Shown here piece after piece: positions 21,503 through 59,860 of a stretch of 64,000 bases of DNA; position 1 is the first letter of the stretch, and each line of letters begins with the position of its first letter. Under the pieces are notes generated by a model, which did not search any database, was not told the DNA's origin, and was given only the letters and a program-made list of their open reading frames with translations. Position numbers and translations under genes: made by a program. The stretch covers positions 62,001-126,000 of the forward strand of contig NZ_RJJT01000013.1 in assembly GCF_003938655.1 (NCBI RefSeq), read 5' to 3'. This stretch comes from Rhizobium pisi. GTDB lineage: Bacteria; Pseudomonadota; Alphaproteobacteria; Rhizobiales; Rhizobiaceae.

Positions 21503-22240
21503 TCAATTCTCGATGGTGAACTGCACCCGGTCGGCCGCGAAGCGGCTGATCGAATATTGCACCGGCACGCCGTCGAGATCGGTATTCATCGCCTTGGCGA
21601 TCAGCAGGATCGCGCCGGGGGTGAGTTCCAGATCGGTCAGGTCGGCCGTGTTTGCATGGGCGGCCGTCACCTCGGTCGTCGCTCTTATATAGTCCGACAG
21701 GCCGAGTTCAGCGAAAGCCTTGGTGATCGATTCGTGCTTGCGATAGGCCTCGCCAATCCCCGCGAAACGGCCGGCGGGAAACCAGCTCGTCGCCTTTGAC
21801 ACCGGCCGCTTGTCGGCATGGCGCAATGTTTCCAGCCGGATCACTTCCTCCCCCTGCCTCAGGCCCAGCCAGCGAGCGACCTCGGCGCTCGCCTCCTCGT
21901 TCGCCTCATCGAGCAGAAGGCTGCGCATCTCACGCGCCTGATCGCCGATGCCGGCGGTGAACCGTGTACGCCGGGTGATCGGGAAATTCAGCCGCTCCTT
22001 GCGCTCGATCAGCGTGCCGCGACCTTGTACCGCACGCACGATCCCCTCTTGCGCCAGTGCCGCCAAAGCGCTGCGCACCGTATGCCGGTTGACGCCGAAT
22101 TGCAGCGCCAGGACCGTTTCCGGCGGCACCATTCCCGTTTCGTCATAGGCTCCGCTGCTGATCGCCTCGCGAATGCGATCGGCGATCTGGCGCCAGAGCG
22201 CCACGCCGGTCTGTCTTTGTACCTGCTTCAATCCCGCCAT
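21503..22240 (-). CDS. phnF: GntR-family phosphonate regulator
   Basis: Predicted repressor of the phn operon, 245 residues. An N-terminal GntR winged helix (about 10-75, with GVNRHTVRSALAALAQEGIVRAVQGRGT) is joined to a UTRA ligand-binding domain (about 95-240). It is transcribed away from phnG, and a perfect palindrome lies in the gap between them (22324-22341). GntR/HutC-type members bind operators of this sort; the effector is probably a phosphonate or phosphate metabolite. Confidence 0.93.
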   Translation of the reverse strand: MAGLKQVQRQTGVALWRQIADRIREAISSGAYDETGMVPPETVLALQFGVNRHTVRSALAALAQEGIVRAVQGRGTLIERKERLNFPITRRTRFTAGIGDQAREMRSLLLDEANEEASAEVARWLGLRQGEEVIRLETLRHADKRPVSKATSWFPAGRFAGIGEAYRKHESITKAFAELGLSDYIRATTEVTAAHANTADLTDLELTPGAILLIAKAMNTDLDGVPVQYSISRFAADRVQFTIEN

Positions 22241-22288: not shown

Positions 22289-22323
22289 GACATCAATTTA
22301 AGGCTAGGTATAGCTTGTATGGT

Positions 22324-22341
22324 TGTCTATATCAATAGACA
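22324..22341. promoter_or_regulatory. PhnF operator candidate
   Basis: TGTCTAT (22324-22330) and ATAGACA (22335-22341) form a perfect 7-bp inverted repeat with spacer ATCA, 17 bases before the phnG start. The half-site resembles GntR/HutC operators (GT..TA core). Position over the leader fits repression by the divergently encoded PhnF. Confidence 0.6.
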
Positions 22342-22358
22342 TTTTAAGGAAAGCGGCG

Positions 22359-22835
22359 ATGATATCAGCGGACAGGAAAGACGCTGCGTCACAGACGGCA
22401 TCCGGGCGCAAACGCGCCGCCGATCTGCTGGCGCGGGCGGAACGGAGCGAACTCTCGGCGGTCTGGGATGCATTGCCGGAAAAGCCCACGGCACATCCGG
22501 TGCGCGGGCCGGAGACCGGGCTGGTAATGGTGCGCGGCCGCATCGGCGGCGGCGGAGCGCCCTTCAATCTCGGTGAAGTGACGGTGACGCGCGCCACGGT
22601 CCGGCTCGAGTCCGGCTCCATCGGCCATGCGCAGGCGCTTGGTACGGATCGTGAAAAGGCGCGGCTTGCGGCGATCTTCGACGCGCTCTGGCAGGAGGAA
22701 GCGACGAGGGATTTCGTCGAGCAGGCGCTGCTTTCGCCGATCGCCGAACGGATCGCCGCCGCCGATCGCCGCAAGGCGGACGAGACGGCAGCGACCCGGG
22801 TCGATTTCTTCACGATGGTGCGGGGAGACAACTGA
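22359..22835 (+). CDS. phnG: C-P lyase core subunit PhnG
   Basis: Part of the PhnGHIJ core complex, which couples the phosphonate to ribose. The 158 residues start at an ATG preceded by AAGGAAAG. A TTG at 22323 would add 12 residues but runs through the operator. Family features include a Lys/Arg-rich N terminus, RGRIGGGGAPFNLGEVTVTRATVRL in the middle and GHAQALGTDREKARLAAI. Its stop overlaps the phnH start (TGATG). Confidence 0.94.
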   Translation: MISADRKDAASQTASGRKRAADLLARAERSELSAVWDALPEKPTAHPVRGPETGLVMVRGRIGGGGAPFNLGEVTVTRATVRLESGSIGHAQALGTDREKARLAAIFDALWQEEATRDFVEQALLSPIAERIAAADRRKADETAATRVDFFTMVRGDN

Positions 22836-23443
22836 TGGCTCTCAAGACAGAAGCCCTGACCGGCGGCTTTGGCGAGCCGGTCTTCCATGCCCAGAGTGTC
22901 TTCAAGATGCTGATGGACGGCATGGCTCGCCCCGGTACGATCCAGACGGTCCAGCCCGATGTCACCCCGCCGGCGCCGCTCGGCATCGCCGCAGGCGCGA
23001 TCGCACTGACGCTTTGCGACCACGACACACCGGTCTGGCTTGCCTCCGGGCTGGCGAAATCCGGCGTAGCGGAATGGCTCGGCTTCCATACCGGCGCGCC
23101 GTCGACGGCTGAAAAGGCCGAGGCCCGCTTTGCCTTCATCGAGGCCGGCACAGCGCTTTGCTCTTTCGGCCTGTTTGCGTCAGGCACGCAAGAATATCCC
23201 GACCGCTCGACGACCGTCGTCATGGAGCTCGCCGAACTCGAAGGCGGGCGCAGGCTGGCGCTGATGGGGCCTGGCATTCAGAGCGTGACGGAAATGGCGC
23301 CGATCGGCCTGCCGGACACTTTCCTCAGGCTCTGGACCGAGAACCGCGCGCTGTTTCCGCGCGGCGTCGACATCGTGCTGACATCGGGCAAACGTTTCCT
23401 CTGCCTGCCGCGCACCACCAAGATCACAGCAACGGAGATCTGA
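22835..23443 (+). CDS. phnH: C-P lyase core subunit PhnH
   Basis: Structural subunit of the C-P lyase core complex, 202 residues, usual family length. PVFHAQSVFKMLMDGMARPGTI near the N terminus is the conserved PhnH segment. LALTLCDHDTPVW-like sequence (ALTLCDHDTPVWLA) and the FPRGVDIVLTSG C-terminal region also match. Translation is coupled to phnG by the one-base stop/start overlap. Confidence 0.95.
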   Translation: MALKTEALTGGFGEPVFHAQSVFKMLMDGMARPGTIQTVQPDVTPPAPLGIAAGAIALTLCDHDTPVWLASGLAKSGVAEWLGFHTGAPSTAEKAEARFAFIEAGTALCSFGLFASGTQEYPDRSTTVVMELAELEGGRRLALMGPGIQSVTEMAPIGLPDTFLRLWTENRALFPRGVDIVLTSGKRFLCLPRTTKITATEI

Positions 23444-23447
23444 GCTC

Positions 23448-24554
23448 ATGTATGTTGCCGTCAAGGGTGGCGAGGCCGCCATCGCCAATGCCCACCGCCT
23501 GCTTGCCGACCGCCGCCGCGGCGACCGTTCGCTGTCCGCGATCGGCATCGAACAGATCGTCGCGCAGCTGGCGCTCGCCGTCGACCGCGTCATGGCCGAG
23601 GCCTCGCTTTTCGACCGCACACTCGCAGCCCTCGCCGTGCGCCAATCGCGCGGCGATATGATCGAGGCGATCTTCCTCTTGCGCGCCTATCGCACGACGC
23701 TGCCGCGCTTCGGCTATTCGAAGCCGCTCGACACGGCTGCTATGACGATCGAACGCCGCATCTCGGCGACGTACAAGGATCTGCCGGGCGGCCAGCTTCT
23801 CGGGCCCACCTTCGACTATACGCACCGCTTGCTCGATCCCTCGCTGCTTTCGGACGAGGCCGTAGAGGAGCCGGCACAGCGTCCGGCCGAGACCGGCCGC
23901 GTCATGCGCGTCTCCGAAATCCTCGGCGAGGAAGGCCTTATCGAGGCTGACGGCGACATGCCCGAAGATCACGAGATCGGCGACCTGACCCGCGAGCCGA
24001 TGGAATTCCCGATGACCCGGGATCTCCGCCTGCAGGCGCTTGCCCGCGGCGACGAGGGCTTCCTGCTGGCGCTCGGTTATTCCACCCAGCGCGGCTATGG
24101 CCGCAACCACCCTTTCACCGGCGAAATCCGCATCGGCGAAGTCGAGGTGGAATTCGATGTGCCGGAACTCGGTTTCGCCGTCTCGCTCGGCGTAATCCAG
24201 ATCACCGAATGCCAGATGGTCAACCAGTTCAAGGGGTCCGCCAAGGCGCCGCCGCAATTCACCCGCGGCTACGGCCTGGTGTTCGGCCAGAGCGAACGCA
24301 AGGCGATGGCGATGTCGCTGGTTGATCGCGCGCTCCGCGCCGAGGAGCTCGGCGAGGATATCACCGCGCCGGCACAGGACGAGGAATTCGTCATTTCCCA
24401 TTCCGACAACGTCCAGGCGACGGGCTTCGTCGAGCACCTGAAGCTTCCGCATTATGTGGACTTCCAGGCCGAACTCGATCTCGTCCGCCGCATGCGCCGC
24501 GAATTCGAAGCTGCCCGCAACGGCGGCGAAGACATGAAGGAAGCAGCCGAATGA
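23448..24554 (+). CDS. phnI: C-P lyase core subunit PhnI (nucleosidase)
   Basis: With PhnG, H and L it exchanges adenine of ATP for the phosphonate, giving ribose 1-phosphonate 5-triphosphate. The 368 residues match the family length. The start is MYVAVKGGEAAIANAH. Conserved stretches are TDMP-type DGDMPEDHEIGDLTREP, RDLRLQALARGDEGFLLALGYSTQRGYG, HPFTGEIRIGEVEV and SDNVQATGFVEHLKLPHYVDFQAE. The stop overlaps phnJ by four bases. Confidence 0.96.
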   Translation: MYVAVKGGEAAIANAHRLLADRRRGDRSLSAIGIEQIVAQLALAVDRVMAEASLFDRTLAALAVRQSRGDMIEAIFLLRAYRTTLPRFGYSKPLDTAAMTIERRISATYKDLPGGQLLGPTFDYTHRLLDPSLLSDEAVEEPAQRPAETGRVMRVSEILGEEGLIEADGDMPEDHEIGDLTREPMEFPMTRDLRLQALARGDEGFLLALGYSTQRGYGRNHPFTGEIRIGEVEVEFDVPELGFAVSLGVIQITECQMVNQFKGSAKAPPQFTRGYGLVFGQSERKAMAMSLVDRALRAEELGEDITAPAQDEEFVISHSDNVQATGFVEHLKLPHYVDFQAELDLVRRMRREFEAARNGGEDMKEAAE

Positions 24555-25426
24555 CCGATCTCGCCAGCTACAACTTCGCCTATCTCGACGAACAGACCAA
24601 GCGGATGATCCGCCGCGCCATCCTGAAAGCGATCGCCATTCCGGGCTACCAGGTGCCCTTCGCCTCGCGCGAAATGCCGATGCCCTACGGCTGGGGCACC
24701 GGCGGCGTGCAGGTGACCGCCTCGATCATCGGACCTGATGACGTGCTCAAGGTCATCGACCAAGGCGCCGACGACACGACCAACGCCGTTTCCATCCGCG
24801 CTTTCTTCCAGAAGGTCGCCAACGTCGCGGTGACGACCCACACCAGCGATGCAACGATCATCCAGACGCGCCACCGCATTCCGGAAGAAAAGCTCGGAGC
24901 CGGCCAGGTGCTGGTCTACCAGGTGCCCATCCCCGAGCCGCTGCGCTTCCTCGAGCCGCGCGAGACCGAGACGCGCAAGATGCATGCGCTGGAGGAATAC
25001 GGCCTCATGCATGTGAAGCTCTATGAGGACATCGCCCATAACGGCCGCATCTCCAGGACCTACGCTTATCCGGTGAAAGTCCACGGCCGCTATGTCATGG
25101 ATCCGTCGCCGACGCCGAAATTCGACAATCCGAAGATGCACATGTCGGACGCGCTGCAGCTCTTCGGCGCCGGCCGCGAGAAGCGCATCTACGCGGTTCC
25201 GCCCTATACCGACGTCGTCAGCCTGGATTTCGAGGACTACCCCTTCGACATCCAGCGCTTCGACAAGCCCTGCGCCCTTTGCGGTGCGGAGGATGTCTAT
25301 CTCGACGAGGTGATCCTCGACGACAAGGGCGGGCGCATGTTCGTCTGCTCCGACACTGATCATTGCGAAGACCGCCGCGCGCACGGCCACGCGGGCGAGA
25401 TGCTGGCCCGGGAGGCTGCAGAATGA
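24551..25426 (+). CDS. phnJ: C-P lyase catalytic subunit PhnJ, radical SAM
   Basis: Cleaves the C-P bond by glycyl/thiyl radical chemistry, releasing the alkane and ribose 1,2-cyclic phosphate 5-phosphate. The 291 residues keep the four key cysteines, which I place from the codons at 241, 244, 266 and 272, the same numbers as in E. coli PhnJ: CALCG, then FVCSDTDHC. GTGGVQVTAS and HTSDATIIQTRHRIPE are also family hallmarks. It should therefore be active. Its end overlaps the phnK start (ATGA). Confidence 0.98.
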   Translation: MTDLASYNFAYLDEQTKRMIRRAILKAIAIPGYQVPFASREMPMPYGWGTGGVQVTASIIGPDDVLKVIDQGADDTTNAVSIRAFFQKVANVAVTTHTSDATIIQTRHRIPEEKLGAGQVLVYQVPIPEPLRFLEPRETETRKMHALEEYGLMHVKLYEDIAHNGRISRTYAYPVKVHGRYVMDPSPTPKFDNPKMHMSDALQLFGAGREKRIYAVPPYTDVVSLDFEDYPFDIQRFDKPCALCGAEDVYLDEVILDDKGGRMFVCSDTDHCEDRRAHGHAGEMLAREAAE

Positions 25427-26199
25427 GCGATATCCCACTTCTCAAAGTCCATGACGTTTCGAAATTCTACGGCAACCGCATCGGCTGCCGCGACGTCTCC
25501 TTCGAGCTCTGGCCCGGCGAAGTGCTGGCCATCGTCGGCGAATCCGGCTCCGGCAAGACGACGCTGCTCAACTGCCTCTCGACCCGGCTGCTGCCGAGCA
25601 CCGGCAGCGTCGAATATCACATGCGCGATGGCAGCTACCGCGACCTCTACCGCATGAACGAGGCCGAGCGGCGCTTCCTGATGCGCACGGACTGGGGCTT
25701 CGTGCACCAGAACTCGGCCGACGGCCTGCGGATGGCTGTTTCGGCCGGCGCCAATGTCGGCGAAAGGCTGATGGCGATCGGCGACCGGCACTACGGCAAG
25801 ATCCGCGCCTCGGCGATCGACTGGCTCGAACGCGTCGAGATCGACGCCGGCCGCATCGACGACCAGCCGCGCGCCTTTTCCGGCGGCATGCGCCAGCGCC
25901 TGCAGATCGCCCGCAACCTCGTCACCGGCCCTCGCCTCGTCTTCATGGATGAACCCACAGGCGGCCTCGACGTTTCGGTGCAGGCGCGCCTGCTCGATCT
26001 CGTGCGCGGCCTCGTCAACGATCTCGGTCTTTCGGCCATCATCGTCACCCACGATCTTGCCGTCGCCCGCCTGCTCTCGCACCGCATGATGGTGATGAAG
26101 GACGGCTACGTCATCGAACACGGGCTCACCGACCGCGTGCTCGACGATCCGCACGAACCCTACACGCAGCTGCTCGTCTCCTCGATCCTGCAGGTCTGA
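25423..26199 (+). CDS. phnK: C-P lyase ATP-binding protein PhnK
   Basis: ABC-type ATPase that binds the C-P lyase core at PhnJ rather than a membrane transporter. The 258 residues have Walker A GESGSGKTTLLN (about 39-50), the signature FSGGMRQRLQIA and Walker B LVFMDEPTGGLD. WGFVHQNSADGLRM is a PhnK-specific stretch. The ATG at 25423 overlaps the phnJ stop. A repeat element follows before phnL. Confidence 0.96.
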   Translation: MSDIPLLKVHDVSKFYGNRIGCRDVSFELWPGEVLAIVGESGSGKTTLLNCLSTRLLPSTGSVEYHMRDGSYRDLYRMNEAERRFLMRTDWGFVHQNSADGLRMAVSAGANVGERLMAIGDRHYGKIRASAIDWLERVEIDAGRIDDQPRAFSGGMRQRLQIARNLVTGPRLVFMDEPTGGLDVSVQARLLDLVRGLVNDLGLSAIIVTHDLAVARLLSHRMMVMKDGYVIEHGLTDRVLDDPHEPYTQLLVSSILQV

Positions 26200-26281: not shown

Positions 26282-26989
26282 ATGGCAACGCCCCTCGTCG
26301 TTTCCGAAGTCTCGAAGAGCTTCACCATGCACCTGCGCGACGGCATCAAGCTGCCGGTCGTCTCCGATGTCGCCTTCTCGGTCGCATCGGCCGAATGCGT
26401 CGTGCTCGGCGGCCCCTCGGGCATCGGCAAGAGCTCACTGCTCAAGATGATCTACGGCAATTACGCCGTCGACACCGGCCAAATCCTCATCCGCCATGAT
26501 GGGCGCATCGTCGATCTCGCCTCTGCCGATCCGCGCACCGTGCTCAACGTCCGTCGCGATACGCTCGGCTATGTCAGCCAGTTCCTGCGCACGGTGCCGC
26601 GCGTGGCGGCGATCGACGTGGTTGCCGAGCCGCTGGTCGCGCGCGGCGAGGAGACCGCCGTGGCACGAGAAAAGGCGGGCGCCCTGCTCGCCAAACTGAA
26701 CCTGCCGGAGGCGCTCTGGCAGCTTCCGCCCGCCACCTTCTCAGGCGGCGAGCAACAGCGCGTCAACATCGCCCGCGGCTTCATCACCGATCACACGATC
26801 CTGCTGCTCGATGAACCCACTGCCTCGCTCGATGCGAGGAATCGTACCGTCGTCGTCGGCATGATCGCGGAAAAGAAGCAGGCGGGTGTCGCACTTCTCG
26901 GCATCTTCCACGATGAGGAGGTGCGTGAAGCCGTCGCCGACCGCATCCTCGACGTCCAGCAGTTCTCGCCGAGAAAGATCGCCGCATGA
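26282..26989 (+). CDS. phnL: C-P lyase ATP-binding protein PhnL
   Basis: Second ABC-type ATPase of the pathway, needed for ribose 1-phosphonate 5-triphosphate formation with PhnGHI. The 235 residues show Walker A GGPSGIGKSSLLKM (about 40-53), a Q-loop in LGYVSQFLRTVPRV, the signature FSGGEQQRVNIA and Walker B ILLLDEPTASLD. An 82-bp gap with a repeat element precedes it, unlike the overlapping genes upstream. The stop overlaps the next start by four bases. Confidence 0.95.
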   Translation: MATPLVVSEVSKSFTMHLRDGIKLPVVSDVAFSVASAECVVLGGPSGIGKSSLLKMIYGNYAVDTGQILIRHDGRIVDLASADPRTVLNVRRDTLGYVSQFLRTVPRVAAIDVVAEPLVARGEETAVAREKAGALLAKLNLPEALWQLPPATFSGGEQQRVNIARGFITDHTILLLDEPTASLDARNRTVVVGMIAEKKQAGVALLGIFHDEEVREAVADRILDVQQFSPRKIAA

Positions 26990-27603
26990 GCCGCAAGCTG
27001 GGCATTGAGCCCTATGTCCACGAGACGGCATCCGTCAGCGATTCCACCTTCGGACGCTATACGGAGGTCTCCGAACGCTGCCGCATCAGCGAGGCCACGT
27101 TCGGCGACTATTCCTACATCATGCAGGACGGCTCGGTCTGGTGCGCGACGATCGGCAAGTTCGTCAACATCGCCGCCGCGGTGCGCATCAACGCCACCAA
27201 CCATCCGACCTGGCGCGCGACGCTGCATCATTTCACCTATCGCGCCGCCGATTACTGGCCGGACGGCGACATGGAGACCGAATTCTTCGAATGGCGGCGC
27301 TCCAACCGCGTGACGATCGGCAACGACGTCTGGATCGGCCATGGGGCGACCATCCTGCCCGGCGTCAGCGTCGGCAACGGCGCGGTGATCGGGGCCGGCG
27401 CCGTCGTGTCCAAGGACGTTGCGCCCTACACGATCGTCGGCGGCGTTCCGGCCAAACTCATCCGCGAGCGCTTTCCGAAAGAGATCGGCGAACGGATGGA
27501 CAGGCTTGCCTGGTGGGACTGGGAGCACGAGCGGCTGCGCCTGGCGCTAGCCGATTTCCGCAACCTGAGCGCGGAAGATTTCCTGTCCCGCTACGGTGGC
27601 TAA
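26986..27603 (+). CDS. Phosphonate-operon hexapeptide-repeat transferase
   Basis: A 205-residue left-handed beta-helix protein of the family found only in C-P lyase operons (TIGR03308 type). Hexapeptide repeats run from about 15-65 and 105-155, with TIGNDVWIGHGATILPGVSVGNGAVIGAGAVVSKDV as the classic acyltransferase coil. A loop (about 66-104) contains NHPTWRATLHHF, resembling the active-site region of such acetyltransferases. It may N-acetylate aminoalkylphosphonates in place of PhnO; this is inference. Many C-P lyase operons lack it. Confidence 0.85.
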   Translation: MSRKLGIEPYVHETASVSDSTFGRYTEVSERCRISEATFGDYSYIMQDGSVWCATIGKFVNIAAAVRINATNHPTWRATLHHFTYRAADYWPDGDMETEFFEWRRSNRVTIGNDVWIGHGATILPGVSVGNGAVIGAGAVVSKDVAPYTIVGGVPAKLIRERFPKEIGERMDRLAWWDWEHERLRLALADFRNLSAEDFLSRYGG

Positions 27604-27717: not shown

Positions 27718-28566
27718 ATGATGTTCGAGCTGAAGAATGTCACCCGTCGTTTCGGAAAAAAGCTCGCCGTCGATTCCGTCACGCTCGACATTCCTCAGGG
27801 CCAGATGGTCGGCATCATCGGCCGCTCCGGCGCCGGCAAGTCGACGCTGCTGCGCATGATCAACCGCCTTCAGGAGCCGAGCTCCGGCTCCATTCATTTC
27901 GCCGGCGTCGAGGTCTCCGGGCTTCGCGGCCGGGCGCTGCGCAACTGGCAGCGCGATTGCGCGATGATCTTCCAGCAGTTCAACCTGGTACCGCGCCTCG
28001 ACGTTCTCACCAATGTCATGCTCGGCCGCCTCAATCACCGCTCAACGCTCCTGAGCCTGCTTAACATCTTCACCCGCGAGGAGCGCGTGCATGCCATCGC
28101 GGCGCTCGAACGCCTCGGCATCGAGCAGACGGCGCTGCAGCCGGCCGGCACGCTGTCCGGCGGCCAGCAGCAGCGCGTAGCGATCGCCCGCGCGCTGATG
28201 CAGAACCCGAAAATGGTGCTCGCCGACGAACCGATCGCCTCGCTTGACCCGCTGAACGCGAAGATCGTCATGGATGCGCTGCGCGATATCAACGAGCGCG
28301 AGGGCATCACCGTCATCACCAACCTCCACACGCTCGATACCGCCCGCAATTATTGTGAGCGCATCGTCGGCATGGCCGGAGGCCGCGTCGTCTTCGACGG
28401 CAAGCCCTCGGAGCTGACGGCCGAAGCGGTGAAGGAAATCTACGGGACAGACAAGGACGGCGCCGGCATCGACGAAACGATGACCTCGACGTCAACCAAT
28501 ATCGCTCCCGAACGTGCAGACAATCAAACCGCCGGCGCCCAACCGCTGGCGCTAGCCGGTCTCTGA
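27718..28566 (+). CDS. phnC: Phosphonate ABC transporter ATP-binding protein
   Basis: Energises phosphonate import with PhnD and PhnE. The 282 residues carry Walker [15 protein letters not shown] (about 36-49), Q-loop [14 protein letters not shown], signature [12 protein letters not shown] and a Walker [13 protein letters not shown]. The C-terminal 35 residues are a Ser/Thr/Asn-rich tail not found in E. coli PhnC. AAGGAAAAAGC precedes tandem ATGs (27718/27721). Confidence 0.95.
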
Positions 28567-28653: not shown

Positions 28654-29559
28654 ATGTTGAAGAAAGCACTCTTTGCGGCAACGGCGCTCTTCGCGCTCGC
28701 CGGCGCCGCCAATGCTGCAGACCTCAAGGAATTCCGCATCGGCATCCTCGGCGGCGAAAACGAAACCGACCGCCTGCGCAACTATGCCTGCCTTGCCGAC
28801 CACCTGAAGCAGGAATTTGGCTTCGGGAAGGTTTCGCTCTTCCCGGCCGCCGATTATGACGGCGTTATCCAGGGCCTGCTCGGCGGCACGCTCGACTTCG
28901 CCGAACTCGGCGCTTCCGGCTACGCAGCTGTCTACATCAAGGATCCGAAGGCTGTCACGCCGATCCTGACGACGCAGCAGAAGGACGGCTCGACGGGCTA
29001 CCACTCGATCGGCCTCGCTCTGAAGTCCTCCGGCATCAAGACCATCCTGGACGCCAAGGGCAAGAAGCTCGGCTACGCCGATCCGGACTCGACCTCGGGC
29101 TACCTCGTTCCGCTGACGCAGATCCCGAAGGATACGGGCATGCCGAACGACAAGTTCTTCGCTTCGACGCAGTTCAACGGCGGCCACGAGAACAACCTTC
29201 TCGCCGCCTATGACGGCAAGGTCGACGTTGCCGTCGACGATAGCTCGGGCATCGGCAATTTCAAGGACGGCTATACCTCCGGTACCTTCCGCAAGGAAGT
29301 CGACAAGGGCGCCGTCGACCCGAACAAGCTGGTTGAAGTATGGCGTTCGCCGCTGATCCCGAACGGCCCGCTCGTCGTTCGCAACGCTCTCGGCGAAGAG
29401 TGGCAGACGAAGCTTGCAGCCTTCTTCACGGCTCTGCCGGAGAAGGATCACAAGTGCTTCGCAGCTATCGAAGGCGGCGATTTCAAGGGCTACTCGCCGG
29501 TCAAGCACGACTTCTACAACACTGTCGTTGAAGTCCGTAAAGCTGCCATCGGCGGCTGA
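28654..29559 (+). CDS. phnD: Phosphonate ABC transporter substrate-binding protein
   Basis: Periplasmic phosphonate receptor, 301 residues, with a signal peptide ending in AGAANA (residue 22). Recognisable are FRIGILGGENETDRLRNYACL and LDFAELGASGYAAVY. Also clear are YADPDSTSGYLVPL, a key binding loop, and AVDDSSGIGNF. GGAG precedes the ATG. A hairpin downstream probably raises its level relative to the permeases. Confidence 0.96.
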   Translation: MLKKALFAATALFALAGAANAADLKEFRIGILGGENETDRLRNYACLADHLKQEFGFGKVSLFPAADYDGVIQGLLGGTLDFAELGASGYAAVYIKDPKAVTPILTTQQKDGSTGYHSIGLALKSSGIKTILDAKGKKLGYADPDSTSGYLVPLTQIPKDTGMPNDKFFASTQFNGGHENNLLAAYDGKVDVAVDDSSGIGNFKDGYTSGTFRKEVDKGAVDPNKLVEVWRSPLIPNGPLVVRNALGEEWQTKLAAFFTALPEKDHKCFAAIEGGDFKGYSPVKHDFYNTVVEVRKAAIGG

Positions 29560-29624: not shown

Positions 29625-30584
29625 ATGACTATTGCCGATACACAGCCGCACATGCAGAGCACTGAGGAGATCGGCTCCGCCTGGGACCGGATGGTCGCCA
29701 AGCGCCGCTTCTACACCGTGCTTGGCCTGGTTATCCTCATTGCGGCTTTTGTGAGCTCCGTCCGCTTCGCCGACGAAAGCAATGCCGGCCATTTCTTCGA
29801 CCGCCTGCCGCATCTCTTCGATTTCCTCAGCTGGCTCATCCCCAAGGATTGGAACGACGTCTGGCGCGCGCTGTTCGACATAGCGAGCGTGAACGACAAG
29901 GGCGGCGAGGAATTCAATTTCGACAAGGGCCGCGTCTATGTCTGGGGCGCCTTCTACATTCCCGAATATTTCGAGCTGATGATCGTGACGATCAACGTGG
30001 CGCTGATCTCGACGATCATCGCCTTCGTCTTTGCCCTTCCCTTGAGCTTCTTTGCCGCGCGCAACCTGACGAGTTCCTGGCCGCTGCGCGTCTTCACCAA
30101 GCGCCTGATGGAATTTTTGCGCGCCTTCCCCGAAATCGTCATCGCCGGACTGTTCTCGGCGATCCTGTCGATCGGACCGGTCGCCGCCATCATCGCTATT
30201 ACCCTGCACACGATCGGCGCGCTCGGCAAACTCTTCTACGAGGTGGCCGAGAATATCGACATGAAGCCGCATGAAGGCATGAAGGCCGTCGGCGCCAACT
30301 GGTGGGAGCGCGTGCGCTTCGCCGCACTGCCGCAGGTGCTGCCGAATTTCACCTCCTATGCGCTGCTGCGCCTGGAGATCAACGTGCGCGCCTCAACCAT
30401 CATCGGCGCCGTCGGCGGCGGCGGCATCGGCGAGGAACTGAAGCTTTCGATCTCGCGCGGTTTCGGCGCCAAGACGATGGCGCTCGTTCTCCTGCTCTTC
30501 GTGACGATCGTCGCCGTCGACCAGTTCTCCGCATGGCTGCGCCGCCGCCTGGTCGGCGAGCAGGCTTTCCTTCTGCAACATTGA
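29625..30584 (+). CDS. phnE: Phosphonate ABC transporter permease 1
   Basis: Inner-membrane permease, 319 residues (first of two PhnE paralogues here). One N-terminal helix (about 28-46) is followed by a loop, then a permease core of about five helices (about 115-310). The coupling loop is EGMKAVGANWWERVRFAALPQV, and GAVGGGGIGEELKLSI follows. Starts 65 bp after phnD and ends seven bases before the second permease gene. Confidence 0.93.
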   Translation: MTIADTQPHMQSTEEIGSAWDRMVAKRRFYTVLGLVILIAAFVSSVRFADESNAGHFFDRLPHLFDFLSWLIPKDWNDVWRALFDIASVNDKGGEEFNFDKGRVYVWGAFYIPEYFELMIVTINVALISTIIAFVFALPLSFFAARNLTSSWPLRVFTKRLMEFLRAFPEIVIAGLFSAILSIGPVAAIIAITLHTIGALGKLFYEVAENIDMKPHEGMKAVGANWWERVRFAALPQVLPNFTSYALLRLEINVRASTIIGAVGGGGIGEELKLSISRGFGAKTMALVLLLFVTIVAVDQFSAWLRRRLVGEQAFLLQH

Positions 30585-30591
30585 GGCTGCC

Positions 30592-31935
30592 ATGACGGTG
30601 ATCGACGCAAACCGTATGAACGAGATCGAAGCGCGCTATCCGGAATATTTCCACCGGTCGTTCCGCCAGCGTTTCGGCGGGTTGATGATCGTGATCGCTA
30701 CGCTCCTCTACGGCTTCTACGCCGTCTGGTTCTTCGACCTGCCCAAGCTCTTTGCCGAAGCCCATTGGGAGCGCGTCGGCATCTATCTCAGCCAATGGGT
30801 GAGCTACGACGTCCAACCGGAATTCCGCATCGAGGACGACGGCACGATACAGACCCGCTACCCCCGCTTCTCGCCGCTCGGCGACAATCCGCACCCGGAT
30901 TGGCTGGTCAACAATCCCGACGGCAGCATCACCGTTTCCATCAGCGGGACCGGCCGTGCGGTTACCGTTTCGAAGAGTGAGACGATCGTGACCGCGCATG
31001 GCGTCAGCGTTCCCGTCGACGTTTCGAGCGGCGCGCCGAAAGTCGTCGGGCCGGTGCCCGGCTGGATGACGGTCTATGACGACAATGTGCTCGCGGATCT
31101 CGGCTTTGCCGGCGACGTCAGCATTTCCGTCGACCGCGTGAAGATCCGCAAGCGTTTCATCGGCTGGGCGAATTTCATCTTCGACACGCAATCGTCCTTT
31201 TTCGACAAGCCGGCCGGCGAGGTAATCAGCCTCATCGTTTCCGGCCCGCGCATCAAGCCCGACCAGTCCAACCTGTCGCTCGCCTTTGACGACATCTGGA
31301 ACAACAGCGAATGGCAGCACGGCGACGTCTGGACCAAGCTTTTCCAGACGATCGTCATGGCGTTCCTGGGAACACTGCTCGGCGCGATCGCCGCCTTCCC
31401 GCTCGCCTTCATGGCAGCGCGCAACATCACGCCGAACCGCTTCCTGAACCAGATCCTGAAGCGCTTCTTCGATTTCCTGCGCTCGGTCGACATGCTGATC
31501 TGGGCGCTGTTCCTGACGCGCGCCTTCGGTCCCGGCCCGCTTGCCGGCAGCGGCGCGATCTTCCTTACCGAGACAGGCACACTCGGCAAGCTCTATTCCG
31601 AAGGGCTCGAAAACATCGACAACAAGCCGCGCGAAGGCATCAAATCGACCGGCGCGCAGACCGTGCTCGTCCATCGTTACGGCATTATGCCGCAGATCGT
31701 TCCGGTCATCGTCAGCCAGACGCTCTATCAATGGGAATCCAACGTGCGCGGCGCGACCATCATCGGCGCCGTCGGTGCGGGCGGCATCGGCCTCAAGCTA
31801 TGGGAGGCCATGCGCACCAACGCCAATTGGGAAAACGTCGCCTACATGGTCATTCTGATCCTGATCGTCGTCTTCCTTTTCGACGCCGCCTCGAATGCGC
31901 TGCGCCACCGGTTGATGGGCACGAAGGCACACTGA
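30592..31935 (+). CDS. phnE: Phosphonate ABC transporter permease 2 (long form)
   Basis: Second permease, 447 residues. It has an N-terminal helix (about 25-46), an unusually long extracytoplasmic region of about 190 residues (60-245), and a core (about 250-440) like the first permease, with EGIKSTGAQTVLVHRYGIMPQI as coupling loop and GAVGAGGIGLKLWEAM. The large periplasmic insert is typical of the second PhnE of rhizobia. The pair probably forms a heterodimer. Confidence 0.9.
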   Translation: MTVIDANRMNEIEARYPEYFHRSFRQRFGGLMIVIATLLYGFYAVWFFDLPKLFAEAHWERVGIYLSQWVSYDVQPEFRIEDDGTIQTRYPRFSPLGDNPHPDWLVNNPDGSITVSISGTGRAVTVSKSETIVTAHGVSVPVDVSSGAPKVVGPVPGWMTVYDDNVLADLGFAGDVSISVDRVKIRKRFIGWANFIFDTQSSFFDKPAGEVISLIVSGPRIKPDQSNLSLAFDDIWNNSEWQHGDVWTKLFQTIVMAFLGTLLGAIAAFPLAFMAARNITPNRFLNQILKRFFDFLRSVDMLIWALFLTRAFGPGPLAGSGAIFLTETGTLGKLYSEGLENIDNKPREGIKSTGAQTVLVHRYGIMPQIVPVIVSQTLYQWESNVRGATIIGAVGAGGIGLKLWEAMRTNANWENVAYMVILILIVVFLFDAASNALRHRLMGTKAH

Positions 31936-32076
31936 TCCGCTGTCAAAAGGCGATGGTGGCGCTGGCGTCATCATCATTCTGTCACGGAAATCTTTTAGCC
32001 GGGAACCTGCTTGCGGTTCGCCGCCAAATCACTGCACATTGCGCTCCCCGTTTCGACGATCCCCAGGATAAAAGCC

Positions 32077-32772
32077 TTGCGCTACGCTCTCTATTTTTCG
32101 CCGCCGAAGGATGATCCCCTTGTCGGCGCGGCCTCGCTTTGGCTCGGCCGCGATGCCTTCACCGGCGAGACTTATCCTGCACCGGACCATGAGAAGCTCA
32201 ACGCAGCGGAGCAGTTCGAACTGACCGCCGACCCGCGCCGCTACGGTTTTCACGCCACGATCAAGGCGCCGTTTTCGCTCGCAACTTCCGTCACCGAGAA
32301 AGATCTCATGACAGTTGCCGAGGATTTTGCCGCCCGTACGCCAGCCTTCGAGATTCCCGAGCTCGTTCTCGGCCAGCTCGGCCGTTTTTTTGCCCTCGTT
32401 CCCGGTTCTCTTCATCAACCTCTTCAGGATTTCGCCGCGAAGGTGGTAAAGTCTTTCGAGCCGTTCCGTGCGGCGCTTTCCGAGGCCGATATCGTGCGGC
32501 GCAGCCCGGAGAAGCTCAGCGACAGCCAGCGCGCCAATCTGCAGCGCTGGGGTTATCCTTACGTCATGGAGGATTTCGGCTTTCACATGACGCTGAGCGG
32601 CCAGGTGCCAGCAGAGCGAGCCGACGTCATGAAGGCGGTCCTGACCGAGCGTTTTGCCGATTTCACCGGCCGGCCGCTTTTGATTTCCGGCCTTGCCGTC
32701 TTCACCGAGGAGGCGCGCGGCGCCCCGTTCAAAGTTCATTCCTGGCTGCCGCTTGCCGGCGCCAAAAGCTGA
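32077..32772 (+). CDS. Phosphonate-metabolism protein, DUF1045 (2H phosphoesterase-like)
   Basis: A 231-residue protein of the family seen beside C-P lyase genes (TIGR03223/DUF1045 type). Two HxT motifs stand out: GFHATIKAP (about residues 64-72) and GFHMTLSGQ (about 168-176). This pair is the hallmark of the 2H phosphoesterase superfamily, which opens cyclic phosphates. No phnP lies in this cluster, so it may hydrolyse the cyclic ribose phosphate released by PhnJ; this is inference. The TTG start at 32077 matches the family N terminus RYALYFSPP. A longer frame to 32011 shows no similarity. Confidence 0.82.
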   Translation: MRYALYFSPPKDDPLVGAASLWLGRDAFTGETYPAPDHEKLNAAEQFELTADPRRYGFHATIKAPFSLATSVTEKDLMTVAEDFAARTPAFEIPELVLGQLGRFFALVPGSLHQPLQDFAAKVVKSFEPFRAALSEADIVRRSPEKLSDSQRANLQRWGYPYVMEDFGFHMTLSGQVPAERADVMKAVLTERFADFTGRPLLISGLAVFTEEARGAPFKVHSWLPLAGAKS

Positions 32773-32785
32773 AAGATCTGACGAC

Positions 32786-33925
32786 ATGAGCAAAGAGACC
32801 GTGTTTTCCAACGCCCGCATCGTTCTCGAGGATGACATCCTCTCGGGATCGATCCTCATTCGCGATGGCAAGATTGCAGACATCTCCGAGGGCAATTCGA
32901 TAGCCGGCGAAGATTTTGAAGGCGACTACGTCATTCCCGGTCTCGTGGAACTGCATACCGACCATCTCGAGGGCCACTACCAGCCACGTCCCGGGATTCG
33001 CTGGAACAAGACGGCGGCAGTCCAGGCGCACGACGCCCAGATCGTCACCTCAGGCATCACCACGGTCTTCGACTGCCTGCGCATGGGCGCAGACGAGGAC
33101 GGCGGCTTCGAACATGGCGAGATGCGCGAAATGGCCGACGCCATCCAGTCGGCGGAGAAGGAAGGAAGGCTGCGCGCCGAGCACCTGCTCCACCTGCGCT
33201 GCGAGGTCTCGGCGGACAATGTTCTCGAACATTTCGCCGATTTCGAAAACGACCGGCATGTCCGGCTCGTCTCGCTGATGGATCATGCGCCCGGCCAGCG
33301 GCAATTCCAGACGATGGATCAATATATCTTCTACTACCAGAAGAAGCGGGGCCTGAGCGACGAGGTCTTCGCTCGTTTCGTCGCCAAGCGGCAGGCGGAA
33401 TCGGCACGCAATTCGACGCCACACCGTAACGCCATCGCCAAGGTCTGCGCCGAGCGCGGCATCACGGTCGCAAGCCACGACGACGCGACGCTTTCCCATG
33501 TCGACGAGGCGATCGACAACGGCGTGCGCCTTGCCGAATTCCCGACCAGTTTCGACGCCGCCCGGGCATCGCACGAGCATGGTATGAGCGTGCTGATGGG
33601 CGCGCCGAACATCGTGCGCGGCAAATCCCATTCCGGCAATATCGCCGCGCGCGATCTCGCCGAGATGGGCGTGCTCGACGTGCTTTCCTCCGACTACGTG
33701 CCGCTCAGCCTGCTGCATGCGCCCTTCATTCTCGCCGACGAAGTCGAGAGCATCACGCTGCCGAAGGCGATCGCCATGGTGACGTCGACGCCCGCCCGCA
33801 CCGTCAGCCTCGATGATCGCGGGCGGATCGCGACAGGGCTGCGGGCCGATCTCGTCCGCGTTCATCGTTCGCACGGCGTGCCGGTGACACGCTCCGTCTG
33901 GCGCCAAGGACGCCGTGTCGCATGA
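32786..33925 (+). CDS. phnM: Alpha-D-ribose 1-methylphosphonate 5-triphosphate diphosphatase
   Basis: Amidohydrolase-family enzyme that removes diphosphate from ribose 1-phosphonate 5-triphosphate before PhnJ acts. The 379 residues contain the metal-binding PGLVELHTDHLEGHYQPRPG (about 51-70) and VSLMDHAPGQRQ. VASHDDATLSHVDEA and FPTSFDAAR lie in the barrel, and SSDYVPLSLLHAPF near the C-terminal side. An upstream in-frame extension overlaps the previous gene and is rejected. The stop overlaps phnN (ATGA). Confidence 0.96.
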   Translation: MSKETVFSNARIVLEDDILSGSILIRDGKIADISEGNSIAGEDFEGDYVIPGLVELHTDHLEGHYQPRPGIRWNKTAAVQAHDAQIVTSGITTVFDCLRMGADEDGGFEHGEMREMADAIQSAEKEGRLRAEHLLHLRCEVSADNVLEHFADFENDRHVRLVSLMDHAPGQRQFQTMDQYIFYYQKKRGLSDEVFARFVAKRQAESARNSTPHRNAIAKVCAERGITVASHDDATLSHVDEAIDNGVRLAEFPTSFDAARASHEHGMSVLMGAPNIVRGKSHSGNIAARDLAEMGVLDVLSSDYVPLSLLHAPFILADEVESITLPKAIAMVTSTPARTVSLDDRGRIATGLRADLVRVHRSHGVPVTRSVWRQGRRVA

Positions 33926-34518
33926 CGCCGCACGAACCCCATGCCGCAGCCGGGGCTGAGCGCGGCATCATGGTCGTCGTTGTCGGGCCGAGCGGCGCCG
34001 GCAAGGACACGCTCATGAACCTCGCCGCCCGGCGCTTTGCCGGCCGTGAAAACGTTCATTTCACCCGCCGTGTAATTACCCGCCACCGTGACGCCGGCGG
34101 CGAAGACCATCTTTCCGTCTCCCTCCAAGGGTTTGCCGCCATGGAGCAGTCGGGCTCCTTCGCCGTCTGGTGGGAAGCACACGGCCTCAAATACGGCATT
34201 CCGGCCGAGGTCTCGGTGGCGCTGTCGAGAGGCCATATCGTCGTCGCCAACGGCTCGCGCTCGGCGCTCCACCGTTTCCAGGCGGCCTTCCCGCGCCTCA
34301 AGGTCATCAATGTCACCGCCCGCCCCGAAGTGCTCGCCGGCCGGCTGGAGGCGCGCGGGCGCGAGACGCATGAGGATATCATGGCCAGGCTCGCCCGCGG
34401 ACCGCTGACGGTTCGCGGCGAATACGACGTGACGGATCTCGACAATAGCGGCTCGCTCGAAGAGGCCGAACAGAAGATGATCAAGATCCTGGACGGGCTG
34501 CTGGCGGAGGTGCGCTGA
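33922..34518 (+). CDS. phnN: Ribose 1,5-bisphosphate phosphokinase
   Basis: Phosphorylates ribose 1,5-bisphosphate to PRPP, which recycles the sugar left by C-P lyase. The 198 residues are guanylate-kinase-like with P-loop GPSGAGKDTLMNLAAR (about 19-34). RRVITRHRDAGGEDHLSVS and WEAHGLKYGIPAEV follow. It is the last gene of the phn cluster, overlapping phnM by four bases. Confidence 0.94.
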   Translation: MTPHEPHAAAGAERGIMVVVVGPSGAGKDTLMNLAARRFAGRENVHFTRRVITRHRDAGGEDHLSVSLQGFAAMEQSGSFAVWWEAHGLKYGIPAEVSVALSRGHIVVANGSRSALHRFQAAFPRLKVINVTARPEVLAGRLEARGRETHEDIMARLARGPLTVRGEYDVTDLDNSGSLEEAEQKMIKILDGLLAEVR

Positions 34519-34537: not shown

Positions 34538-35038
34538 ATGCGCGCCATCAAAGTTGTCGACTACGACCCTTCCTGGCCGCTGCTCTTTGCCGACATCAAC
34601 GCCGAGATCTCCACCCTGCTCGGCGGCCTCGCGCTTTCCATCGATCATATCGGCAGCACCTCGGTACCCGGCCTGGCGGCCAAACGGAAGATTGACCTTG
34701 ATGCCGTCATCTCCGAAGAAGCCCTGCCGGCGGCGATCGAAATCGTGCGTGCTGCAGATTTCGTCTTCCATGGCGACACGGGAGAAAATCGATGGGCCTT
34801 CACGCGCGATCATCAAGATTACGGGTTCAGGCTCTATCTGTGCGGACCCGATAATCGCGCACATCGGGAGCGCATCCTGTTTCGCAACTATCTCCGGAAA
34901 CATCCCGAGAGGGCCAAGGCCTATGCCGACCTGAAACGGCAGCTGGCTGCGGAGGCGAATGGCGACTGGGATTTCTACACCGGCGGAAAGACCGAATTTG
35001 TCGCCGAGACAATCCGGCTGGCCGTCCTGAAGACATGA
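34538..35038 (+). CDS. GrpB family protein (UPF0157)
   Basis: A 166-residue protein of the GrpB/UPF0157 family, a nucleotidyltransferase-like fold of unclear function. The family signature VVDYDPSWPLLFADINAEI opens it, then IDHIGSTSVPGLAAKRKIDLDAVI. DYGFRLYLCGPDN and HRERILFRNYLRKHPE follow. It starts 19 bp after phnN. Functional connection with phosphonate use is doubtful. Confidence 0.87.
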   Translation: MRAIKVVDYDPSWPLLFADINAEISTLLGGLALSIDHIGSTSVPGLAAKRKIDLDAVISEEALPAAIEIVRAADFVFHGDTGENRWAFTRDHQDYGFRLYLCGPDNRAHRERILFRNYLRKHPERAKAYADLKRQLAAEANGDWDFYTGGKTEFVAETIRLAVLKT

Positions 35039-59438: not shown

Positions 59439-59860
59439 GAAATGGGGAGTCCCGGATTTGTGATAGCCGGGGTTTGGTCTTAGCGAAATTTCCGCGGTTT
59501 GGAAGGTTAAATGGTGAATGGCGCTACTATTTCTTCGTAAAAGTGCCGCTTATTCGTCATGCCCTTGTCATCTTCAAAATCTAGATATGCTCGCAACAAG
59601 ACCGGCATGAGCAGCCTTCGGTTGCAGCCGGGTGCGCGAGGGATGATCCCTTCGACCTTGCCGACGCGATGCTGACCACGGATGAACTGGCAGCGTCGTG
59701 ATCCGGATATCCGGCGGAGCCGGAGCGGAAAAGCGGGCCGTGCCCGCTTTTTTTGCTTTGCGGATGCCAGGGCTACCGGATCAGGTGGCGTTTGCCTTTT
59801 CAATCCAGGCGGTTTGCTGCTAGAGATCGGACACTCCCCCCGAGCAAAGCAGCCTCCCCC
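59439..59860. other. 422-bp gap with a possible small transcript
   Basis: It contains the promoter region of the kinase and, on the plus strand, a strong terminator (59730-59754). No protein gene on the plus strand precedes that terminator; a small RNA is possible. A palindrome CCGGATATCCGG lies at about 59702-59713. A 98-residue minus-strand open frame crosses the terminator and is not credible. Confidence 0.5.
59730..59754 (+). terminator. Orphan rho-independent terminator
   Basis: AAAGCGGGC (59730-59738) and GCCCGCTTT (59742-59750) make a perfect 9-bp stem with a 3-base loop, followed by a run of seven T. No protein gene lies upstream on the plus strand after the kinase promoter region, so it may end a small RNA. 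Confidence 0.8.

Follow-up and report, generated by a model that had tools for sequence, protein, structure and literature searches.

Results

The phn cluster and the DUF1045 gene

The window analysed here, a stretch of 64,000 nucleotides of Rhizobium pisi DNA, holds a C-P lyase cluster that is complete apart from phnP. The phnF gene on the minus strand is followed, all on the plus strand, by phnG, H, I, J, K and L, a hexapeptide transferase gene, phnC, D, E1 and E2, the DUF1045 gene, phnM and phnN:

21503..22240, minus strand: phnF regulator (TIGR02325, 318.4 bits)
22323..22835, plus strand: phnG (TIGR03293, 164.6 bits)
22835..23443, plus strand: phnH (TIGR03292, 196.2 bits)
23448..24554, plus strand: phnI (PF05861, 547.2 bits, window 23448-24503, G000:C4:85448-86503)
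24551..25426, plus strand: phnJ, the C-P bond cleaving subunit (PF06007, 493.2 bits, window 24566-25381, G000:C4:86566-87381)
25420..26199, plus strand: phnK (TIGR02323, 408.5 bits)
26282..26989, plus strand: phnL (TIGR02324, 328.5 bits)
26986..27603, plus strand: hexapeptide-repeat transferase of phn clusters (TIGR03308, 329.2 bits)
27718..28566, plus strand: phnC (TIGR02315, 318.8 bits)
28654..29559, plus strand: phnD (TIGR03431, 293.7 bits)
29625..30584, plus strand: phnE1 (TIGR01097, 245.4 bits)
30592..31935, plus strand: phnE2 (TIGR01097, 247.9 bits)
32077..32772, plus strand: DUF1045 / TIGR03223 protein, proposed 2H-type phosphoribosyl 1,2-cyclic phosphate phosphodiesterase (HAT 59-61, HMT 170-172)
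32786..33925, plus strand: phnM (NF011983, 689.8 bits; TIGR02318, 525.4 bits)
33922..34518, plus strand: phnN, ribose 1,5-bisphosphate phosphokinase (TIGR02322, 220.7 bits; 4-base overlap with phnM)

The DUF1045 protein is thus encoded by a C-P lyase cluster without phnP, and its gene is separated by 141 bases from phnE2 and by 13 bases from phnM (ATG at 32786). The original prediction had placed a DUF1045 protein with two HxT motifs next to phnM in a cluster lacking phnP; the profile matches across the phn genes, the 13-base gap and the motifs HAT 59-61 and HMT 170-172 bear this out. On the same strand, 19 bases after phnN, a GrpB-family protein is encoded at 34538-35038. A search of the window for the Pho box CTGTCATNNNNCTGTCAT, allowing up to 3 mismatches, found a single match, at 59554 outside the phn cluster, compared with a chance mean of 2.79.

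The DUF1045 reading frame encodes 231 amino acids from a TTG start to a TGA stop. This start is plausible because the first in-frame ATG corresponds to residue 78 only; an alternative in-frame TTG lies at 32011, and the TIGR03223 alignment begins at residue 1 of the 32077 start. The protein scores above the cut-offs of PF06299 (193.9 bits, cut-off 24.3) and, over its full length, of TIGR03223 (276.2 bits, cut-off 248.95), and below that of PF13563, the 2'-5' RNA ligase superfamily (21.9 bits, cut-off 27). Hmmscan at E 0.001 returned TIGR03223 as the sole model and no match to TIGR03307 (PhnP). The protein carries the two HxT/S motifs of the 2H superfamily, H59-A-T61 (codon at 32251) and H170-M-T172 (codon at 32584). 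Its nearest named relatives are those of Rhizobium sp. R634 (91% identity) and R. leguminosarum Norway (89%). It shares the full-length match, the genetic setting and the invariant residues of the TIGR03223 / PF06299 family, shows no difference from it and is an ordinary member.

Candidates for the PhnP step elsewhere in the genome

The genome of the window (6.67 Mb, 72 contigs) is 99.82% complete. A phnP gene elsewhere, which the original prediction had named as a point to check, did not emerge: no PhnP above cut-off was found genome-wide, and the single match to the PhnP model at E 0.001 reached 24.1 bits versus a cut-off of 272.25. This match is a metallo-beta-lactamase (MBL) fold protein encoded outside the phn cluster, which scores 43.4 bits when the whole protein is taken. 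It fits NF038231 better (216.1 bits), yet stays below the cut-off of 360 for that model as well. Its neighbour is TatD-like, as judged by reading the open reading frame and not by a profile scan.

PhnP itself is an MBL-fold protein, and this distant relative could open the cyclic phosphate while DUF1045 has another job in the pathway. No other protein of the genome matches the PhnP model, and such proteins also occur in other DUF1045 genomes. However, its score lies far under the PhnP cut-off, NF038231 describes it better, its gene is not in the phn cluster, and the mutual replacement of DUF1045 and PhnP reported below would be left unexplained, so that we regard this explanation as improbable.

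A PHP-family enzyme would offer a different route. PhnPP of Eggerthella, said to have been described by Ghodge in 2013, reportedly removes both ester bonds, and a similar enzyme would yield ribose 5-phosphate and phosphate; the precedent is from another phylum. The R. pisi genome has three PHP-domain matches, in open frames 1095, 1188 and 1204 residues long. These lengths approximate that of DNA polymerase III alpha, from which we infer their identity. As all three frames exceed 1000 residues, a small PHP enzyme resembling PhnPP was not seen in this genome. The cluster moreover retains phnN, whose substrate is ribose 1,5-bisphosphate, and we consider the PHP route extremely improbable. Two further 2H-like proteins are encoded in the genome, both outside the phn cluster, which is a point against assigning the step to DUF1045.

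DUF1045 and PhnP across C-P lyase genomes

We surveyed 396 Pseudomonadota genomes, among which 108 had phnJ above cut-off (G040, with a phnJ match under the cut-off, was excluded), and a second set of 74 added phnJ genomes, to which the order of G189 contributed 19 and the family of G191 the other 55. The counting was asymmetric, with DUF1045 accepted at E 1e-10 even under its cut-off and PhnP above cut-off only. On this basis, 80 of the 108 genomes have DUF1045 without PhnP, 26 PhnP without DUF1045, none both and 2 neither; in the second set the numbers are 67, 4, 1 and 2. Combined, the 182 phnJ genomes comprise 147 with DUF1045 only, 30 with PhnP only, 1 with both and 4 with neither, again with PhnP above cut-off only. 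The family cut-off was passed in 55 of 91 DUF1045 genomes of the first set and 23 of 68 of the second; G711, where the DUF1045 frame is split in two, was counted as DUF1045-bearing. In the first set, DUF1045 is present in every one of the 75 phnJ genomes belonging to the window's class, and PhnP above cut-off in none of them; the 33 other phnJ genomes have DUF1045 in 5 and PhnP in 26 cases. G616, the sole genome with both, contains two C-P lyase clusters (L217 and L218), one with PhnP and one with DUF1045.

PhnP was scored on up to 6 candidates per genome in the first set and on all candidates in the second. Among the candidates scored, PhnP-model matches of 63 to 108 bits, under the cut-off, occur in 10 of the 147 DUF1045 genomes (G016, G032, G190, G212, G288, G292, G448, G482, G493 and G522). 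They lie on a different contig or more than 150 kb from phnJ, and we read them as probable other MBL proteins. Among the genomes with neither enzyme, G547 has a PhnP-model match of 111 bits, under the cut-off, and its contig ends about 4.2 kb past phnJ, while its genus mate G522 has DUF1045 about 5.4 kb past phnJ. In G432, phnJ is found at base 649 of its contig. The clusters of G305 (L005) and G308 (L006) are readable and contain neither DUF1045 nor PhnP, the latter sought by tblastn; both fall among PhnP clusters on the PhnJ tree.

At the level of clusters, 92 phnJ clusters labelled in the fetched stretches divide into 65 with DUF1045, 20 with PhnP, 7 with neither and none with both. Cluster L033, at first labelled as having neither enzyme, was counted with DUF1045 because a fragmented DUF1045 copy lies in the adjoining stretch L032. 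Three families (f46, f67 and f87) each include clusters of both kinds. Fisher tests gave p values of 5e-23 for the first set and 7e-29 for another count, both ignoring the relatedness of the genomes. We had sought many independent swaps between PhnP and DUF1045 and dropped this idea, since the tree of the 92 PhnJ proteins needs only 2 changes between them. The replacement pattern is therefore weaker than it appears; the tree offers 2 independent pairs on starred branches, with a median sign test p of 0.5. Overall, the survey supports that DUF1045 and PhnP substitute for one another across C-P lyase genomes, on few independent events.

Gene neighbourhoods of DUF1045

In 70 of 98 phn-associated loci, a count that omits L032 and L239, phnM or phnN is the same-strand neighbour of DUF1045 within 400 bases, and in 25 of the remaining 28 it is the opposite-strand neighbour. 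PhnP adjoins phnN in 20 of 21 PhnP loci. Of 80 genomes, 62 have the DUF1045 gene no more than 15 kb from phnJ and 18 have it farther away or on another contig; these 18 distant copies comprise 11 beside phnM, phnN or phn transporter genes and 7 that stand alone, all 7 retaining both HxT motifs and Y160. Fragmented DUF1045 copies were seen within the C-P lyase clusters L032 and L239.

Among the 288 genomes that did not count as carrying phnJ, 11 possess DUF1045, at least 7 of them with both motifs intact, and no phnI match was found in these 11 genomes. Intact motifs without phnJ imply that some copies have another job. The DUF1045 protein could act on a different cyclic phosphate, such as nucleoside 2',3'-cyclic phosphates from RNA turnover during phosphate starvation, and be merely co-regulated with the phn genes. 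This would agree with the 11 genomes and with the accessible text of PMC5283653, in which 2',3'-cyclic phosphates are frequent substrates of 2H enzymes. Yet DUF1045 is tightly coupled to phnM and phnN, it replaces PhnP across genomes, and a published fosmid works in a host lacking phnP (PMC3840354, available part; see Discussion). For the copies beside phn genes we give this possibility little credence and favour a role in the C-P lyase pathway itself.

Several loci depart from the usual arrangement. L007, L014 and L016 combine DUF1045 with phnM and phnN in genomes where neither phnJ nor phnI is matched; these trios may be what remains of a pathway since lost, or they may form a module that serves a purpose of its own. 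L034 (G383) has phnL, phnM, phnN and phnP in a genome without a phnI or phnJ match. In L008 and L023, DUF1045 and phnM lie beside a gamma-glutamyltranspeptidase-like gene (identified by a Pfam match in L008, with which the L023 gene groups by BLAST).

Residue conservation and a second copy beside ureide genes

Residues were compared in 106 DUF1045 frames, 79 phn-associated and 27 not; four fragments in L032, where no open frame reaches 200 residues, entered neither these counts nor the tree. Invariant in all 79 phn-associated copies are R2, Y6, G24, Y56, H59, T61, P65, G159, Y160, H170 and L173. R142 is present in 78 of them, and residue 172 is threonine in 77 and serine in 2. Conservation of this degree marks the two HxT motifs as more than a chance occurrence.

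Ten of the 27 other copies form one clade (support 100/99), all in the window's family, the Rhizobiaceae. One of them is a second DUF1045 copy in the R. pisi genome, on contig C7, which had no place in the original prediction:

G000:C7:138704-139384, read as L004:7678-8385, minus strand: second DUF1045 copy in a ureide operon (oxidoreductase, DUF1045, puuE, uraD, allA)

Nine of the ten are grouped with relatives of this genome's genes for the allantoinase PuuE, OHCU decarboxylase and ureidoglycolate lyase, and the remaining one lies close to the end of its contig. All ten share the same oxidoreductase and methyltransferase neighbours. L020 was considered as a second ureide-operon case and dropped, as its polysaccharide deacetylase neighbour matched other NCBIfam deacetylases and not PuuE.

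All ten members of the clade have lost R142 and Y160; Y6, T61 and T172 are missing from 8 each, and H59 and H170 from 3 each. A catalytic histidine or threonine is gone in 8 of the 10 members, and L022 and L050 retain both HxT motifs. With HGV and HMP at these positions, the R. pisi copy is unlikely to function as a 2H enzyme. Each of the remaining 17 lone copies keeps H59, T61, Y160, H170 and T172. By these residue counts the motif is held beside phn genes and decayed in one relocated copy, and lone copies in other families retain it too.

These counts would fit a duplication of the enzyme into the ureide (allantoin) operon of Rhizobiaceae, in which R142 and Y160 were lost first and the catalytic histidines and threonines later in most lineages, leaving a probable pseudoenzyme with a non-catalytic role. 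The contrast would mark Y6, R142 and Y160 as residues by which the phn copy likely recognises the ribosyl cyclic phosphate. We give this scenario about even chances. The decayed paralogue serves as an internal control for which residues matter.

Predicted structure

The structure was predicted from an alignment of 57 of the 79 phn-associated sequences, those less than 80% identical, with a pLDDT of 97.3 and a pTM of 0.92. The predicted fold is the 2H phosphoesterase fold. Best Foldseek matches were YjcG, a 2'-5' RNA ligase-like protein of Pyrococcus and the cyclic phosphodiesterase (CPDase) of Arabidopsis, and most top structural matches are named cyclic phosphodiesterases, LigT or 2'-5' RNA ligase-like proteins. 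VIA-align gave Z 14.9 for YjcG and Z 14.1 for Arabidopsis CPDase (1jh6), a tie by the rule of the tool. Searching solved structures with the single sequence gave chance matches only (best E 0.58), and searching with the alignment gave weak ones (best E 0.34, YjcG).

The Arabidopsis CPDase shares its fold with model residues 1-228 (rmsd 3.2 over 167 residues) and, according to the accessible part of PMC5283653, opens the same kind of bond as proposed for DUF1045. This chemistry of a fold relative would be the strongest mechanistic argument for the proposed step. The two proteins differ in length (181 versus 231 residues), are 12% identical, and the conserved R131, R142 and Y160 of DUF1045 fall between helix 114-130 and the second HxT motif. 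E. coli LigT has the 2H fold as well and is found among the matches listed, with Z 12.0-12.7 against the DUF1045 model; we know of no link between it and phn genes. Its chemistry is different, as it converts 2',3'-cAMP to 2'-AMP in the available text of PMC5283653.

Discussion

The breakdown of phosphonates by C-P lyase supplies bacteria with phosphorus and releases methane from methylphosphonate. In the R. pisi cluster, the DUF1045 protein is very probably the phosphoribosyl cyclic phosphodiesterase that replaces PhnP. The original prediction had seen in it a good candidate for the missing PhnP, and this gains support from the absence of PhnP above cut-off, the replacement pattern, the predicted fold and a published fosmid. 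PhnP of E. coli (TIGR03307) has the step proposed here for DUF1045 and adjoins phnN, as DUF1045 adjoins phnM or phnN, but its metallo-beta-lactamase fold is unrelated to that of DUF1045. The two proteins are analogous, not homologous.

In the mechanism we propose, cleavage of the C-P bond by PhnJ would leave 5-phosphoribosyl 1,2-cyclic phosphate, which DUF1045 would hold between its two HxT motifs (H59/T61 and H170/T172). One histidine might activate a water molecule while the other protonates the leaving O2, so that the ring would open to ribose 1,5-bisphosphate. This expected product would then be turned into PRPP by PhnN. Y6, R142 and Y160 may aid recognition of the substrate.

The hypothesis that DUF1045 stands in for PhnP is already in print. 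In the portions of these sources available to us, Martinez 2013 (PMC3840354) states that a 2H protein named 'RcsF' likely plays the PhnP role, and fosmid B3_TF_MPn_2, which carries the 2H protein and lacks phnP, restores methylphosphonate growth of an E. coli host from which phnHIJKLMNOP had been removed. A 2023 review (PMC10574752) likewise proposes a 2H stand-in for PhnP and describes a SEED survey in which 27 of 54 operons had PhnP and rcsF occurred in 16 of those lacking it; PMC5649143 repeats the RcsF idea. An Aminobacter paper (PMC8235418) credits Hove-Jensen 2014 with proposing DUF1045 as phosphoribosyl cyclic phosphodiesterase, and a Phaeobacter proteomics table (PMC10132767) lists 'Putative C-P lyase DUF1045' among phosphate-stress-induced proteins. 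Judging by family, position and taxon, the 'RcsF' of the phosphonate papers is probably DUF1045. A literature search of titles and abstract openings, covering few subscription journals, found no test of DUF1045 as a purified enzyme. Three elements do not appear in the accessible parts of the cited papers: the mutual exclusion of the two enzymes across whole genomes, together with its phylogenetic limit, the match in fold, and the paralogue that decayed in the ureide operon.

If proven, replacement of PhnP by a 2H protein would complete the C-P lyase pathway in rhizobia and, as the published fosmid suggests, also in marine Rhodobacteraceae. It would also provide a marker gene for surveys that seek phnP only.
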